A stretch of DNA of 64,000 nt. It comes from Tannerellaceae bacterium. Its GTDB lineage: Bacteria > Bacteroidota > Bacteroidia > Bacteroidales > Tannerellaceae. The notes below the pieces were generated by a model that did not search any database, was not told where the DNA came from, and saw only the letters and a list, made by a program, of their open reading frames with translations. Below, in pieces: positions 2,886-10,826 of this stretch (the stretch's first letter is position 1; every line of letters begins with the position of its first letter). The translations under genes and the position numbers were made by a program. The DNA is taken from contig JAISWO010000015.1 of NCBI GenBank assembly GCA_031271045.1, positions 1 to 64,000 on the forward strand, read 5' to 3'.

Positions 2886-3950
2886 TCAGACCGATCGCGC
2901 AATAAAGCCCCCCACGGCAGAGGTCCTGTAAGCCTCCTGCCCGGCGGGGGCTATGTCTTCGGTCACGATACCTGTCGCGATCGCCTCGGCTACGGCCCGA
3001 CGGATGGCTGCGCCCTCCTCAGGCAGGTTGAAAGCATACTCAAACATCAGGGCGGCGCTCAGGATCGTAGCCATCGGATTGGCAATATCCTGCCCCGCCG
3101 CCTGCGGATAAGAGCCGTGGATAGGCTCGAAGACCGACGTATGTACGCCGATCGACGCCGACGGCAGCATCCCCAGCGAACCGCTGATGACGGAAGCCTC
3201 GTCGGTAAGGATATCGCCAAACATATTCTCCGTCACCATCACGTCGAAGCTCTTGGGCGATTGCACCAGACGCATGGCGGCATTATCGACAAACATATAT
3301 TCTGTTTCCACACCGGGATATTCCGGCGCTATTTCCTGCGCTACCTGTCGCCAGAGGCGCGAGGTAGCCAGCACGTTGGCCTTGTCTACAACCGTCAGTT
3401 TCCTGCGTCGCTTCAAGGCATAGCCGTAGGCAAGACGAACGATGCGTTCGATCTCATCGCGCGTATAGACGCACGTATCGTAGGCCGTCCGACCATCTTC
3501 GCTACGCCCTTGCGGACGCCCGAAGTAGAGGCCACCCGTCAGCTCGCGGATACACAGAAAGTCGGCCCCTTCGACCAGCTCGGCGCGCAAGGGCGACTGA
3601 TGGATGAGCGACGGAAAGGTAACGACCGGCCGGATATTGGCATACAGTCCCAGTTGCTTGCGCATAGCCAGAAGCCCCTGTTCGGGACGTACGCTCGCCG
3701 AAGGGTCGTTATCGTACTTAGGATGCCCAATAGCTCCGAAGAAGACGGCGTCGCTTTCCATACAAAGGCGATGCGTCTCGTCGGGGTAAGGATTACCGGT
3801 GGCGTCGATAGCAGCCGCCCCGACTAAGCCTTCCTTTGCATGCAGTTCGTGGCCAAATACGGCGCATACGGCGCGTACGACCTTCATACCCTGTTCGATG
3901 ATTTCCGGGCCGATTCCGTCGCCCGGCAGTACGGCAATGTTCAGTTTCAT
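2886..3950 (-). CDS. leuB: 3-isopropylmalate dehydrogenase
   Basis: [25 protein letters not shown]...; [47 protein letters not shown]. Confidence 0.97.
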
Positions 3951-4396
3951 CCTTCGCGATTAAAATAAATATACTGCGGTTCGGTCGGGATGTAGTCCTC
4001 TTCGTCCCAGAGGGAGCTGGTGATCATCAGGTCGGCGCTGTAACGGTTGCAGGCAATCGGGACATTGTGCACCCGGCATTGGCGGAGTAGCATCTGAATG
4101 TCGGCCTCATGCGGCTGCGGGTTCAGGTCGTCGATCAGGAAGATAGCCAGATTGATTTGTTTGCGTACCACCATAGCGGCTATCTCGGCATCTCCCCCCA
4201 GCGGTCCGGAGTGCATGCAGGTTATTTCGGCATGGATGCCTTTATCTTCAAAAGCCTTGGAGATGAGTCCCCCGGTCGTACCGGTGCATACTAAATGATG
4301 CTGCGCGAGGAAGCGGTCGTTGTGCAAAGCCCATTCTACCATATCGGCTTTTCGTCTGTCGTGCGCCACGAGGGCGATTGTTAATTTCTTGTCCAT
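3947..4396 (-). CDS. mgsA: Methylglyoxal synthase
   Basis: [57 protein letters not shown] match the MgsA family; overlaps leuB by 4 bp. Confidence 0.93.
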
Positions 4397-4400
4397 TTGT

Positions 4401-5912
4401 TTATCCTTCTATTTTGTTTAACATTTTGATAGTTGCTTGTATGGCGGCTTCGGTCTGGTCGCCGTCGAGGCCGCGTGTTTTGAAATCTTTGCCTGCGAAG
4501 TTCCAACTGATGATGGTTTGTACGAAGGCGTCGGTACGTCCTCCCGGCGGGATGGAGACGGAGTAGTTCGTCAGCATCGGGAAAGGGCGCCCCAGCTCGG
4601 TATAGATCATCCGGAGGGCGCGTACGAAGGCGTCGTACTGTCCGTCGCCGGTGGCCGATTGCTCGTAAGTCTGTCCGTCGATCTCTATCTTGAGCGTAGC
4701 CACCGGCCGTAATCCCTGCGCCAGCGACAGGGCGTAGTTCAATATCCGGATCTTAGGCTCGGCGGTCGTATCCCGGTTGAGTACGTCGCTGATGATATAG
4801 GGCAAGTCTTCCTGGGTAACCATTTCTTTCTTGTCGCCCAGTTCAATGATGCGTTCGGTTACCTTCTGCATAGTTTCTTCGTCCATACCGATGCCCAGGG
4901 CTTCCAGGTTTTTGCGGATACTGGCTTTGCCGGAGGTTTTGCCCAGGGCGTATTCCCTGACGCGCCCGAAACGTTCGGGCAGGAGGTCGTTGTAATAGAG
5001 GTTGCTCTTGCTGTCGCCGTCGGCATGAATACCGGCGCATTGGGTAAAGACCGACTCGCCGACGACCGGCTGATTTGGGGCGATATGAATACCGGAATAA
5101 GTTTCTACCAGCCGGCTGACCCGGTTGATCTTCTCTTCCCGGAGGCGGGTATCTTCGCCCAACTGATCTTTGATGACGGCCAGCACGCTGCCCAAGGGCG
5201 CGTTACCGGCCCGCTCACCCAGTCCGTTGATGGTGGTGTGGATGCCTTTCACGCCGGCACGTACGGCCGAGAAGACGTTGGCAACAGCCAGGTCATAGTC
5301 GTTATGAGCATGGAAGTCGAACGTCAGAGCAGGATAGTGGCCGATCATCTGCTTGCAGTATTCGTAGGTATTGAGTGGATTGAGGATACCCAGGGTATCG
5401 GGCAGCATATAGCGGCGGATGGGCAGGTCCTTCAGTCCGTCTACCAGGCGGAAGACGTATTCCGGCGAGTGTATAATGCCGTTCGACCAGTCTTCCAGGT
5501 AGATGTTCACACCGATCTCCATCTTTTCCGCCAGGCGGACGCTTTCGCGGATATCTTCGATATGTTGGTCGGGCGTCTTGCGGAGTTGTTCGGTCACATG
5601 TTTGTGCGAGCCTTTGCACAGGAGGTTGACCGTACGGCATCCGGCTTGCTCTATCCATCGGAGCGACGTACCGCCGTCGAGAAATCCCAGGACTTCCAGC
5701 TTGTGAAGGTTGCCCGTACGCTCGGCCCAGGAGGCAACGCGCCTGACGCCATCAAACTCGCCGTCCGACACACGCGCCGAGGCTATCTCGATACGGTCGA
5801 CTCCCAATTCGTTGAGCAATATCTGCGCGATACTGAGCTTCTCATGGGCGGCAAAAGCGACGCCCGATGTCTGTTCTCCATCCCGGAGGGTGGTATCCAT
5901 TATTTCGATCAT
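4401..5912 (-). CDS. Alpha-isopropylmalate synthase-like / citramalate synthase-type protein with regulatory domain
   Basis: [20 protein letters not shown]..., HAHNDYDLAVAN, INGLGERAGNAPL; C-terminal LeuA dimer-like domain. Paralog of the leuA in the same operon. Confidence 0.88.
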   Translation of the reverse strand: MIEIMDTTLRDGEQTSGVAFAAHEKLSIAQILLNELGVDRIEIASARVSDGEFDGVRRVASWAERTGNLHKLEVLGFLDGGTSLRWIEQAGCRTVNLLCKGSHKHVTEQLRKTPDQHIEDIRESVRLAEKMEIGVNIYLEDWSNGIIHSPEYVFRLVDGLKDLPIRRYMLPDTLGILNPLNTYEYCKQMIGHYPALTFDFHAHNDYDLAVANVFSAVRAGVKGIHTTINGLGERAGNAPLGSVLAVIKDQLGEDTRLREEKINRVSRLVETYSGIHIAPNQPVVGESVFTQCAGIHADGDSKSNLYYNDLLPERFGRVREYALGKTSGKASIRKNLEALGIGMDEETMQKVTERIIELGDKKEMVTQEDLPYIISDVLNRDTTAEPKIRILNYALSLAQGLRPVATLKIEIDGQTYEQSATGDGQYDAFVRALRMIYTELGRPFPMLTNYSVSIPPGGRTDAFVQTIISWNFAGKDFKTRGLDGDQTEAAIQATIKMLNKIEG

Positions 5913-5979: not shown

Positions 5980-6579
5980 TTACGTGTAACTCGTAACTAA
6001 ACCCTCATATTTCTCTATTTTTTCTTTGTTGGCTAAGAGGTAGTCGATGTCGTCGAGGCCGTTTACCAGGCAGTCCTTTTTGTAGGCATTGATATCGAAA
6101 TGTTCGCTGCGGCCGGTGGCGCGATTGGTGATGATCTGGGCGGGGAGGTCGATGGTGAGCGTCGTTGCAGCGTTTGCTTCGATGGAGACAAACAGTTCGC
6201 TCAGGAAGTCCGGCGAGACAACGACCGGCAGCAGCCCGTTATTCATTGAGTTATTCTTGAAGATGTCGGCAAAAAAGCTACTGACGACGGCCCGGAAGCC
6301 GTAGCCCGTGATCGCCCAGGCGGCATGTTCGCGACTGCTGCCGCTGCCGAAGTTCTTCCCCGCCACCAGGATGTCTCCCTTGTAGGCAGGTTGATTCAGG
6401 ACGAAGCCGGGATTGGGGCGGCCGGATTTGTCGTAGCGCCAGTCGCGGAAGAGGTTGTCGCCAAAGCCCTCGCGTGTGGTAGCTTTCAGGAAGCGTGCCG
6501 GGATGATTTGATCGGTATCCACGTTCTCCAGCGGGAGCGGCACGCAGGTGGACGTCAGTATGGTGAATGTATTACGCAT
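5980..6579 (-). CDS. leuD: 3-isopropylmalate dehydratase small subunit
   Basis: PLPLENVDTDQIIPARFLK..., VAGKNFGSGSSREHAAWAI. Confidence 0.97.
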   Translation of the reverse strand: MRNTFTILTSTCVPLPLENVDTDQIIPARFLKATTREGFGDNLFRDWRYDKSGRPNPGFVLNQPAYKGDILVAGKNFGSGSSREHAAWAITGYGFRAVVSSFFADIFKNNSMNNGLLPVVVSPDFLSELFVSIEANAATTLTIDLPAQIITNRATGRSEHFDINAYKKDCLVNGLDDIDYLLANKEKIEKYEGLVTSYT

Positions 6580-6592
6580 AATTTATTCCGGA

Positions 6593-7987
6593 TTACAGGG
6601 TTCTTGGATCGGTGATCTTACCTGTGACGGCGGCAGCGGCAGCTACCAGCGGTCCGGCAAGGATGGTACGTGCGCCGGGGCCTTGGCGCCCTTCAAAATT
6701 ACGGTTGGATGTCGAGACGGCATATTTGCCGGCAGGCACCTTATCGTCGTTCATTGCCAAGCAGGCCGAGCAGCCGGGCTGACGCAGTTCAAAACCGGCT
6801 TCCGTCAGGATGGCGTCGATACCTTCGGCACGTATCTGCTGCTCCACTTGCCGGCTCCCGGGCACTAACCAGGCTGTGAGGCCGGGAGCTTTCCGGTATC
6901 CTTTCACTGCGGAGGCGAAGGCTCGGAAATCTTCTATCCGTCCGTTGGTGCAACTACCGAGGAAAACATAATCGACCGGTTTGCCCAGCATCGGATCGCC
7001 CGGATGGAAGCCCATATAATCGAGTGCCTTGAGGAAAGAGATGCGGCCGGCCTCGTCGATATTGTCGAGCGAAGGGATCTGTTCCCGTATGCCTATTCCC
7101 ATGCCGGGATTGGTGCCGTATGTTACCATCGGTTCGATGTCTTCGGCGCGGAAGCGCACTTCTTTGTCGAACGTAGCGTCGTCGTCGCTGTAAAGGTTTT
7201 GCCAGGCAGCCAGGGCTTTCTCCCATCCGGTTCCCTGGGGAGCGAACTCCCGGCCTTTCAGGTAATCGAAGGTGACCTGGTCGGGAGCGATCATACCTCC
7301 GCGGGCACCCATCTCGATAGAGAGGTTGCAGATGGTCAGGCGTTCTTCCATCGTTGTACGGCGGATGGCCTCGCCGGCGTATTCGACGAAATAACCGGTC
7401 GCCCCACTGGTCGTCATCCGGGAGATGATATAGAGGGCGACGTCTTTGGCCGTTACGCCGGCGCGCAGTTGTCCGTCGAGGGTGATGCGCATGGTGCGGG
7501 GCTTGCGCTGCATGATGCATTGGGTGGCGAGGGTCATTTCTACTTCGCTGGTTCCGATGCCGAAGGCGATAGCGCCCAGCGCGCCGTGCGTAGAGGTATG
7601 CGAATCGCCGCAGACGATGGTCATGCCGGGGAGCGTCAGTCCGTTCTCAGGGCCTACGACGTGGACGATCCCGTTTTTGGGATGCTGCAAGCCATAGTAT
7701 GCGAGGCCGAAATCGGCGGCGTTCTTTTCCAGCGTGTCCACCTGTTTCCTGGAGACGGGATCTTCGATCGGTTTATCCTGGTTCAGCGTGGGGACGTTGT
7801 GATCGGGGAGGCAGGTGATTTGTTTGGGGCGGAAGGGAGTCAGTCCCCGTTCGCGCAATCCGGCGAAGGCTTGCGGACTGGTTACTTCGTGGCAGTAGAG
7901 CCGGTCGATGTAGAGTTGAGTCGTTCCGTCGGGCAGCGTGTCCACGATGTGTCGCTCCCAGATCTTTTCGAATAATGTCTGCTTCAT
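6593..7987 (-). CDS. leuC: 3-isopropylmalate dehydratase large subunit
   Basis: [15 protein letters not shown]..., [41 protein letters not shown]; start moved to MKQTLF (residue 34 of the ORF). Confidence 0.97.
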
Positions 7988-7988
7988 A

Positions 7989-9488
7989 TTAGTTATATGG
8001 TATCTTATTAATGGCATCAATGTAAGCTTTGACCGAAGCGGCGATAATATCGGTATGGGCGGCGAAGCCATAATAGATATTGCCATCGTATTCCACTTGT
8101 ATATGCACCTTGCCTATGTCGTCTCTTCCCTTATTGAGGGCCTGAATCAGAAACTCCTGTATTGTTACGGTGCGCTGGGTGAGGGATTCGACGGCTTTGA
8201 TGGCAGCGTCTACCGGGCCGTTGCCCGAGGCGGCAGCTTCGAGTTTTACGCCGGCAATACTGAGGCAGATGCTGGCTACGGGCTTCAGGCCTATGCCCGA
8301 AGAGACTTGCAAATATTCCAGTTTGATGCGTTGCGTGGTGGTTCGGTCTTTGCCTACGAGCATCAGGACGTCGTCGTCGTTGATGTCTCTCTTATTGTCG
8401 GCTAATTTCAGGAAGTCTTCGTAGACTTTTTCCAATTCATCTTGCTCCAGATTGACGTCCAACAGTTGGAGACGGTGTTTCAGGGCAGCCCGGCCGCTAC
8501 GGGCGGTGAGCAGGATGGCATTGTCGTCGATGCCGACGTCTTTGGGGTCGATGATTTCATAGCTTTCGCGGTGTTTGAGCACGCCGTCCTGGTGGATACC
8601 GGAGGAGTGGGCGAAGGCGTTTCGTCCTACGATGGCCTTGTTGGGCTGTATGGGCATATGCATCAGACTGGATACCATGCGGCTGATACCGTATATATTT
8701 TGGCTGTTGATGTTTGTTTCGATTTCTGTCTCGCGGTGGCTTTTGAAAATCATGGCCACTTCTTCGAGCGAAGTATTCCCGGCGCGTTCGCCTATGCCGT
8801 TGATGGTTACTTCGACTTGCCTGGCTCCGTTGAGTACGCCCTGGATCGTATTGGCGGTGGCCATACCCAGGTCGTTATGGCAATGGGTGGAGAGGATGGC
8901 TTTGTCTATGCAGGTTACGTGCTCCATGAGATAGCGTATCTTCGCTCCGTACTCATCGGGCAGGCAGTATCCTGTGGTGTCGGGGATATTGACAACGGTG
9001 GCGCCGGCATGGATGACGGCTTCGACGACACGGGCCAGGTATTCGTTGTCGGTACGTCCGGCGTCTTCGGCATAGAACTCGACGTCTTCTACATAGCGTT
9101 TGGCGTACTTCACACAGGCGACGGCTCGTTCGAGTATTTCTTCCCGGGTGGAGTTGAACTTATACCGGATGTGATAGTCCGACGTTCCGATGCCGGTATG
9201 GATGCGTTTTCGCCTGGCGTACTGCAAGGCTTGGGCGGCTGCGTCGATGTCTTTTTCTACGGCGCGGGTGAGGGCGCAGATGGTGGGCCAGGTGACGGCC
9301 TTGGATATTGCGACTACGCTTTGGAAGTCGCCCGGCGAGGAGATGGGGAAGCCGGCTTCGATGACATCGACACCCAGGGTTTCGAGGGCCTTGGCGACTT
9401 CAATCTTTTCGGTACTGTTCAGTTGACATCCCGGCACCTGTTCACCGTCGCGCAGGGTGGTGTCAAAAATAAATAATCTGTTTGCCAT
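7989..9488 (-). CDS. leuA: 2-isopropylmalate synthase
   Basis: [24 protein letters not shown]..., [32 protein letters not shown]; regulatory domain. Confidence 0.97.
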
Positions 9489-9513: not shown

Positions 9514-9550
9514 AAAAAAGCCCCTCTCATCCGGAAGTGAGAAGGGCTTT
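9514..9550 (-). terminator. Attenuator (Rho-independent) terminator upstream of leuA
   Basis: RNA (minus) AAGCCCUUCUCA-CUUCCGGA-UGAGAGGGGCUU followed by U-run; 12-bp stem with one G.U. Confidence 0.9.
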
Positions 9551-9577
9551 TGTTCGTTTTGGTCCTTTGTATTACGC

Positions 9578-9670
9578 TCAACTGACGCACGCCTCACTTC
9601 CATTCTGCTTCTGAAGTAGAATAATAATGCTTAGGGAGAGGAGGAGATTGTTTGCTGTATTGCGTGTCAT
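9578..9670 (-). CDS. Leucine/isoleucine-rich leader peptide of the leu attenuator
   Basis: ATG ACA CGC AAT ACA GCA AAC AAT CTC CTC CTC TCC CTA AGC ATT ATT ATT CTA CTT CAG AAG CAG AAT GGA AGT GAG GCG TGC GTC AGT TGA = MTRNTANNLLLSLSIIILLQKQNGSEACVS; 6 Leu and 3 Ile in 11 codons; followed by overlapping antiterminator/terminator segments. Confidence 0.88.
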   Translation of the reverse strand: MTRNTANNLLLSLSIIILLQKQNGSEACVS

Positions 9671-9693
9671 ATCGTTATAATTATTATTGGCGG

Positions 9694-9724
9694 CAAAGAT
9701 ACATTCATTTTTATAACATCCAAA
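9694..9724 (-). promoter_or_regulatory. Bacteroidetes-type promoter for the leu operon leader
   Basis: Minus strand TTTG (9724-9721) - 19 bp - TATCTTTG (9701-9694), matching the -33 TTTG / -7 TAnnTTTG consensus. Confidence 0.75.
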
Positions 9725-9833: not shown

Positions 9834-10826
9834 ATGACACGACTTGTAACTCTCTACACCCTCCAGTGGGGTGACTTATCTCTGGAAACAATCTGCGCAA
9901 AGGCCCTTGGCTTTGGCTACGACGGGCTGGAACTCGGCCTTCCCAACCATGTAGACGTCCGGCAAACGGACGCCGCCTACTACCGCGGCATTACAGACCT
10001 TCTCGGCACGCACGGCCTGAAGGTCCGGACAATCTCCACACACCTGATTGGTCAGGCCGTCTGCGACCCGATCGACTTCCGGCATCGCTCGATCCTGCCC
10101 GATTACATCTGGGGCGACGGCGATCCCGAAGGAGTCCGCCAGCGGGCCTCCGAAGAACTGATTCGCACCGCCCATGCCGCTCGCGCGCTGGGCGTCGATA
10201 CGGTAGTAGGCTTCTGCGGAAGCCCCATCTGGCAGTACCTCTACTCTTTCCCGCCCGTTCCCGCATCGCTGATAGAGGACGGCTATGGCGAGTTTGCCCG
10301 CCGGTTCACTCCGATCTTAGACGAATACCAGCGTCTGGGCGTCCGTTTCGCCCTCGAAGTACATCCGACGGAGATTGCCTTCGACACCGTCACGGCCCGC
10401 CGCGCCCTCGAGGCCGTAGGCTCGCATCCGGCCTTCGGCTTCAACTACGATCCCAGCCATCTCGGTTACCAGGGCGTCGATTACGTCGACTTTCTCTACC
10501 AATTTCCCGACCGCATTTTCCATGTCCACATGAAGGATGTCTATTGGAGCGACGCCCCGAAGGCGGCCGGCGTCTTCGGCGGCTATGTCCCCTTCGGCGA
10601 TCCGCGGCGTTATTGGAATTTCCGCAGCCTGGGGCGTGGCAAGATTCGCTTTGAAGAGATCATCCGCGCCTTGAACGACATCGGCTATCAAGGCCCCTTG
10701 TCGGTCGAATGGGAAGACAGTGCGATGGATCGCGAGCACGGCGCCCGCGAGTCGTGCGCATATGTCCGTCGGATCGACTTCCAAGCCTCTGCCCACGCCT
10801 TTGATGCCGTCTTTGAAAGGAAGTAA
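9834..10826 (+). CDS. Sugar phosphate isomerase/epimerase (xylose-isomerase-like TIM barrel)
   Basis: LGFGYDGLELGLPNHVDV, GFCGSPIW, FALEVHPTEIAFD, FNYDPSHLGYQGVDY, HVHMKDVYW, PLSVEWEDS. Confidence 0.88.
   Translation: MTRLVTLYTLQWGDLSLETICAKALGFGYDGLELGLPNHVDVRQTDAAYYRGITDLLGTHGLKVRTISTHLIGQAVCDPIDFRHRSILPDYIWGDGDPEGVRQRASEELIRTAHAARALGVDTVVGFCGSPIWQYLYSFPPVPASLIEDGYGEFARRFTPILDEYQRLGVRFALEVHPTEIAFDTVTARRALEAVGSHPAFGFNYDPSHLGYQGVDYVDFLYQFPDRIFHVHMKDVYWSDAPKAAGVFGGYVPFGDPRRYWNFRSLGRGKIRFEEIIRALNDIGYQGPLSVEWEDSAMDREHGARESCAYVRRIDFQASAHAFDAVFERK

Follow-up and report, generated by a model that had tools for sequence, protein, structure and literature searches.

The leuACD-cimA-mgsA-leuB operon of a Tannerellaceae bacterium is very probably controlled by a ribosome-mediated transcription attenuator, as judged from sequence comparisons. 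We also consider it rather probable that this attenuator is a dual sensor of leucine and isoleucine, that the Ile codons of its leader are kept or lost together with the cimA gene of the operon, and that antitermination captures the part of the terminator where it nucleates, namely the loop and upper stem, rather than its base. The attenuation reading is based on the in-frame Leu/Ile leaders, the covarying alternative helices and the ribosome-sized spacing between codons and helix, together with the use of a rare Leu codon, the conservation of a dedicated promoter and the presence of a matching Ile/Val/Leu leader upstream from ilvD. Only ribosome-mediated attenuation would account for all the comparative evidence, and we regard this conclusion as supported. 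An earlier note on this DNA had proposed such control for a Bacteroidetes leu operon, and conservation, covariation, spacing and codon bias all speak in favor of that proposal.

The leu operon, its promoter and its leader ORF

The DNA studied is a stretch of 64,000 nucleotides (hereafter referred to as the window) from a Bacteroidales genome of 2.79 Mb in 74 contigs, assigned to family-level group f1; the closest named leuA loci are those of Tannerellaceae MAGs. The operon lies on the minus strand and contains, in order, leuA, leuC, leuD, a citramalate-synthase-like gene, mgsA and leuB (Table 1). The product of the cimA-like gene scored 621 bits against NF042433, below the curated cut-off of 950, and is considered here as a putative citramalate synthase, the activity of which is predicted from the family match. 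A methylglyoxal-synthase-like gene is placed between cimA and leuB within the operon. The gene at 9834-10826 (+), beyond the promoter, is oriented divergently, and the terminator between the promoter and leuA therefore serves no upstream transcript.

Table 1. Positions of the operon genes and leader elements in the window, and of the sister attenuator in the same genome.
Feature	Position	Strand	Description
leuB	2886..3950	-	NCBIfam TIGR00169, E 3e-136
mgsA-like	3947..4396	-	NCBIfam NF003559 methylglyoxal synthase, E 1e-48
cimA-like (citramalate synthase family)	4401..5912	-	Best NCBIfam NF042433 (R)-citramalate synthase CimA, E 1e-186, whole length
leuD	5980..6579	-	NCBIfam TIGR00171, E 2e-61
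leuC	6593..7993	-	NCBIfam TIGR00170, E 2e-184
leuA (2-isopropylmalate synthase), first operon gene	7989..9488	-	NCBIfam NF002086, E 1e-219
Intrinsic terminator	9514..9551	-	Hairpin AAAAGCCCUUCUCA/UGAGAGGGGCUUUU + U run; 14 bp, loop of 8
Region 3, antiterminator 3' strand	9533..9541	-	CUCACUUCC (DNA CTCACTTCC); overlaps terminator upper 5' stem and loop
Leader peptide ORF	9578..9670	-	30 codons + TGA, MTRNTANNLLLSLSIIILLQKQNGSEACVS; ATG 9670-9668, TGA 9580-9578
Region 2, antiterminator 5' strand	9593..9601	-	GGAAGUGAG (DNA GGAAGTGAG); pairs with 9541-9533
Control codons (Leu and Ile)	9613..9646	-	CTC CTC CTC TCC CTA AGC ATT ATT ATT CTA CTT
Bacteroidota-type promoter	9694..9724	-	TTTG-N19-TATCTTTG; TTTG 9724-9721, 19-nt spacer, TATCTTTG 9701-9694
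Sister ilvD attenuator	L165 588-747 (own genome, G000:C22)		

The promoter and the 30-codon leader ORF described in the earlier note were both found in place, the ORF being in frame in relatives and the promoter conserved in the leuA leaders. The TAnnTTTG sequence was present 5' of the ATG in 132 of the 145 leuA leaders with sufficient upstream sequence (12 of 145 after shuffling), with a TTTG spacing of 18-20 nt in 112 of the 145 and a peak at 19. A generic promoter/terminator scanner, with a sigma-70-type promoter pattern only, called neither a promoter nor a terminator on the minus strand of the window. The Leu/Ile density of the window leader was reached by none of 1000 dinucleotide shuffles and its pairing score by one of 1000, and no shuffle (0/1000) attained both.

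Conservation of the leader in Bacteroidales

The leuA gene was taken from 198 relatives, about 125 of the upstream regions were read, and the arrangement was kept in most of them (corresponding to about 100 Bacteroidales leuA orthologs). In a typical relative, a leader of about 24 codons precedes (A)GGAAGTGAG(A), which is followed by CCTTTCTCACTTCC..GTGAGAAAGG-TTTTT. The leader peptides of the relatives are of the M..N..NSLIISLSIILLWERDRK type, that of Parabacteroides distasonis (L214) being MTRNLQNSLIISLNIILLWERDRK. The length of the leader segment was a multiple of three in 69 of 76 sequences, versus only 20 of 76 for the linker. The leader ORF of the window and of closely related sequences continues through region 2 (..GSEACVS); in most other relatives it stops inside region 2 (..DRK*), the nucleotides of region 2 remaining unchanged. 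Alignment of the leuA leaders, put forward in the earlier note as a check, revealed conserved Leu/Ile codons and covariation in both helices. A covariance model of the element (R1) detected it in 117 of 394 Bacteroidales genomes; the same sample has leuA in 164 genomes and cimA in 146. No recognizable leader was found directly upstream from the leuA genes sampled outside Bacteroidales.

Alternative helices and spacing

The complementarity that had been claimed between 9601-9593 and 9541-9533 is present and is accompanied by compensatory changes in relatives. Across 76 leaders, the antiterminator was 93.4% paired, with both-side changes in five of its 10 pairs, a result matched by one of 500 shuffles that ignore relatedness; slid registers were only 36-67% paired. 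The terminator was 93.1% paired in the 76 aligned leaders, with both-side changes in six of 16 pairs. In the window, the terminator hairpin extends from 9551 to 9516 and the T run from 9519 to 9514, and the hairpin has a folding energy of -21.2 kcal/mol (z = -4.1). The description of CTCACTTCC as the 5' arm of the terminator holds for its CTCA, which forms stem, but not for the remainder (CUUCC), which forms the loop. Conservation does not support the alternative pairing proposed for CUACUUC and GAAGUG, the sequence in relatives being CUACUC. A conserved 1:2 stem or pause hairpin, of the type that synchronises polymerase and ribosome in such attenuators, was sought across the leader family and was not found, the leader having no consensus structure. 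The window taken alone has a weak 1:2-like fold.

RNA folding, which had also been suggested, yielded both the terminator hairpin and the antiterminator. When the sequence from 9601 to 9533 was folded, with region 4 not yet transcribed, the antiterminator was the best structure (-19.0 kcal/mol); with region 4 included, the terminator reached -27.1 kcal/mol, versus -20.7 kcal/mol for the antiterminator. The terminator is thermodynamically favored, and the switch must therefore be kinetic. With regions 2 and 3 paired, about 10 base pairs in the lower part of the terminator remain unoccupied in the window, and a median of six, counted from the first G/C, in the leuA set, so that a crossing helix (pseudoknot) could conceivably form; the simplest reading would be that this pairing blocks nucleation of the terminator.

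The distance from the end of the last Leu/Ile codon to region 2 had a median of 12 nt (interquartile range 11.5-13, n = 167 leaders) and is 11 nt in the window; a gap of 12 nt corresponds to about the reach of the ribosome 3' of the A site. Stop codons are located inside region 2 or approximately 21-26 nt past its start, and from these positions a terminating ribosome would be expected to cover region 2. The locus has a leader ORF with control codons, a terminator before the first gene and an antiterminator mutually exclusive with it, all features of an attenuator, and the placement of stall and stop relative to the antiterminator fits by position.

We propose that transcription would start about 20 nt ahead of the leader ORF. 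A shortage of charged Leu-tRNA or Ile-tRNA would make the ribosome stall within CTA AGC ATT ATT ATT CTA CTT, its leading edge ending just short of region 2 (GGAAGUGAG). Region 2, left free, could then pair with the emerging region 3 (CUCACUUCC), capturing the terminator's loop together with its upper stem, and the polymerase would continue into leuA. With both tRNAs charged, the ribosome would reach the stop codon and cover region 2, allowing the terminator at 9551-9514 to form. Stalling, the dependence of termination on amino acids and the sign of the response are, in this scheme, predictions from the nucleotide sequence.

Codon content and its association with cimA

The rare codon CUA (CTA) accounts for 31% of the Leu codons of the leaders (n = 772). 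Its share is 2.2% in the coding sequences of leuA at these loci and 0.6% in those of the window. Per leader, the averages are 4.62 for Leu, 4.46 for Ile and 0.57 for Val before leuA, and 3.96, 3.27 and 4.0, respectively, before ilvD; leader codons appear to follow the amino acids that the downstream genes help to make. LeuCD and LeuB also process intermediates of the citramalate pathway, leading to 2-oxobutyrate, a precursor of isoleucine. This makes the CimA-like gene the likely link to isoleucine, the synthesis of which is probably also fed by the leu operon via the putative CimA. The multivalent branched-chain sensing that the earlier note had read from the Ile run is supported as well, and the presence of this gene in the operon is the likely explanation for the Ile codons of the leader.

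Where cimA is linked to leuA, the leaders (n = 78) had a mean of 4.46 Ile codons, and 64 of them contained Ile-Ile. The eight leaders without linked cimA had 0, 0, 2, 1, 2, 1, 1 and 2 Ile codons, none of them with Ile-Ile, and their Leu content stayed at 5-9. The difference in Ile content gave p = 1.6e-6 in a Mann-Whitney test and p = 2e-5 after thinning to six lineages, values that are optimistic, as the linked set is not phylogenetically independent. The unlinked group is small (eight loci, about six lineages, with L120 from a fragmented assembly) and was compiled by reading outputs, the leader start of L353 being a choice; several leuA loci lacking cimA have no leader at all and consequently fall outside the Ile scoring. 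The linked leaders L230, L237 and L285, with just one or two Ile, are exceptions, and the split is strong but not perfect.

These data bear on the possibility that leucine alone is sensed, through the Leu codons, with the Ile residues as incidental hydrophobic filler. Leu codons, including the rare CUA, do occupy the last positions before region 2, which constitute the best stall site for freeing it. Nevertheless, we consider a leucine-only attenuator unlikely: Ile is as frequent as Leu in the leaders (4.46 versus 4.62), it drops to 0-2 in the absence of linked cimA with no such drop in Leu, and neither Val nor other beta-branched or hydrophobic residues serve as filler in the leuA leaders.

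The alternative helices would by themselves suit any attenuator, including one controlled by a metabolite (a riboswitch) or an RNA-binding protein, with an ORF present by chance. However, it is the codon run that sets the spacing, and no structure is conserved beyond the alternative helices. Searches of the leader against Rfam, with gathering and permissive thresholds, gave no family match (weak hits, among them PyrR at 17.8 bits, were far below cut-off), and the T-box covariance model gave no match either; control of this kind is highly improbable. The hydrophobic nature of the peptide and its conserved length (about 24 aa) would be compatible with a functional micro-protein followed by an ordinary terminator or processing signal, but we give this very little credence, given that peptide composition tracks the downstream operon (Val, 0.57 before leuA and 4.0 before ilvD), that the tail past the Leu/Ile run shifts in frame and sequence with the GGAAGTGAG nucleotides retained, and that CUA bias and antiterminator covariation are observed.

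Related leaders

Besides the leu attenuator, R1 identified a second element in the same genome, upstream from ilvD-ilvB-ilvN-(thioesterase-like)-ilvC, with the Ile/Val/Leu leader MTNSFSHSIILVVVILLSISR. A third match in this genome (G000:C64, 28 bits) and a match on the + strand over the window terminator consisted of the hairpin only and were taken as chance or palindrome. Tandem attenuators precede ilvD at L173 (approximately 420-770), L317 and L325; L173 and L325 have two consecutive Leu/Ile/Val-type leaders and terminators, and at L317 an ATG start is confined to the second leader.

Weak R1 matches outside Bacteroidales (L367, L368, L369 and L371) were located upstream from branched-chain and threonine genes, and the leaders there match these genes. 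The genes, named from reading of the translations without a family search, are thrA-like (Thr/Ile leader, MYNSTIIITIIITTGRNLAEE), ilvB-like (Ile/Val leader, MKISTKNIISVVVVVS), ilvE-like and ilvN-like, and their matching leaders suggest that the class makes general use of attenuation. A further weak match (L174, 2979-3119, minus strand) lies before a gltB-like gene; the codons of its leader, MKTKHTSFANKHAYKHNKIVQ, have no obvious fit to glutamate synthesis.

Implications and comparison with known systems

With this attenuator, Bacteroidales, an order dominant in the gut, would have a means of regulating the synthesis of leucine and isoleucine. Translation initiation in the phylum of this order occurs largely without Shine-Dalgarno sequences, and the proposed mechanism implies that ribosome position controls RNA polymerase there. 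The element may serve as a natural reporter, making transcription-translation coupling in that phylum directly testable, and the link between cimA and Ile codons offers a comparative route for predicting the amino-acid products of an operon from its leader.

The enteric ilvGMEDA (Ile/Val/Leu) and thrABC (Thr/Ile) leaders are known cases in which one leader senses several of the amino acids produced by its operon. The Bacteroidales leader shares with them multi-amino-acid sensing matching the operon products, but here the Leu/Ile mix is found on a leu operon and apparently follows the presence of cimA. With leuL of Escherichia coli and Salmonella, it shares Leu control codons including the rare CUA, antiterminator/terminator alternatives and the control of leuA. 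It differs from leuL in its mixed Leu and Ile run, its Bacteroidota promoter, an antiterminator that takes the loop and upper stem of the terminator, and the lack of a conserved 1:2 stem among the leaders searched. There is no detectable sequence or Rfam relation between the two, the Rfam Leu_leader model (enteric leuL) giving no match either at its gathering threshold or with E<=10. CUA is the control codon in the leu leader of Salmonella, and its replacement with CUG lowers sensitivity there (PMC1183508).

Within the same class or phylum, attenuation before amino-acid operons has been proposed: in the parts of these reports available, leader-peptide attenuators are suggested in general terms for Flavobacterium psychrophilum (PMC9723704) and leader-like sORFs are noted in Bacteroides thetaiotaomicron (PMC7366714). 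In the accessible main texts of both, neither the leu/ilv element itself nor its structure, distribution or codon logic is described, and no description of a leu attenuator in Bacteroidales was found in the literature covered, which comprised main texts, as far as available, from outside subscription journals. In other phyla outside Proteobacteria, the portions available describe ribosome-mediated control of branched-chain genes by the ilvBNC leader of Corynebacterium (PMC10272879) and a leucine-rich attenuator of ilv-leu in Staphylococcus aureus (PMC5794164), systems likened to ours by description rather than by sequence. The kind of mechanism, ribosome-mediated attenuation, is already known; what is new is the leader family, its distribution across the order and the co-occurrence of Ile control codons with cimA.
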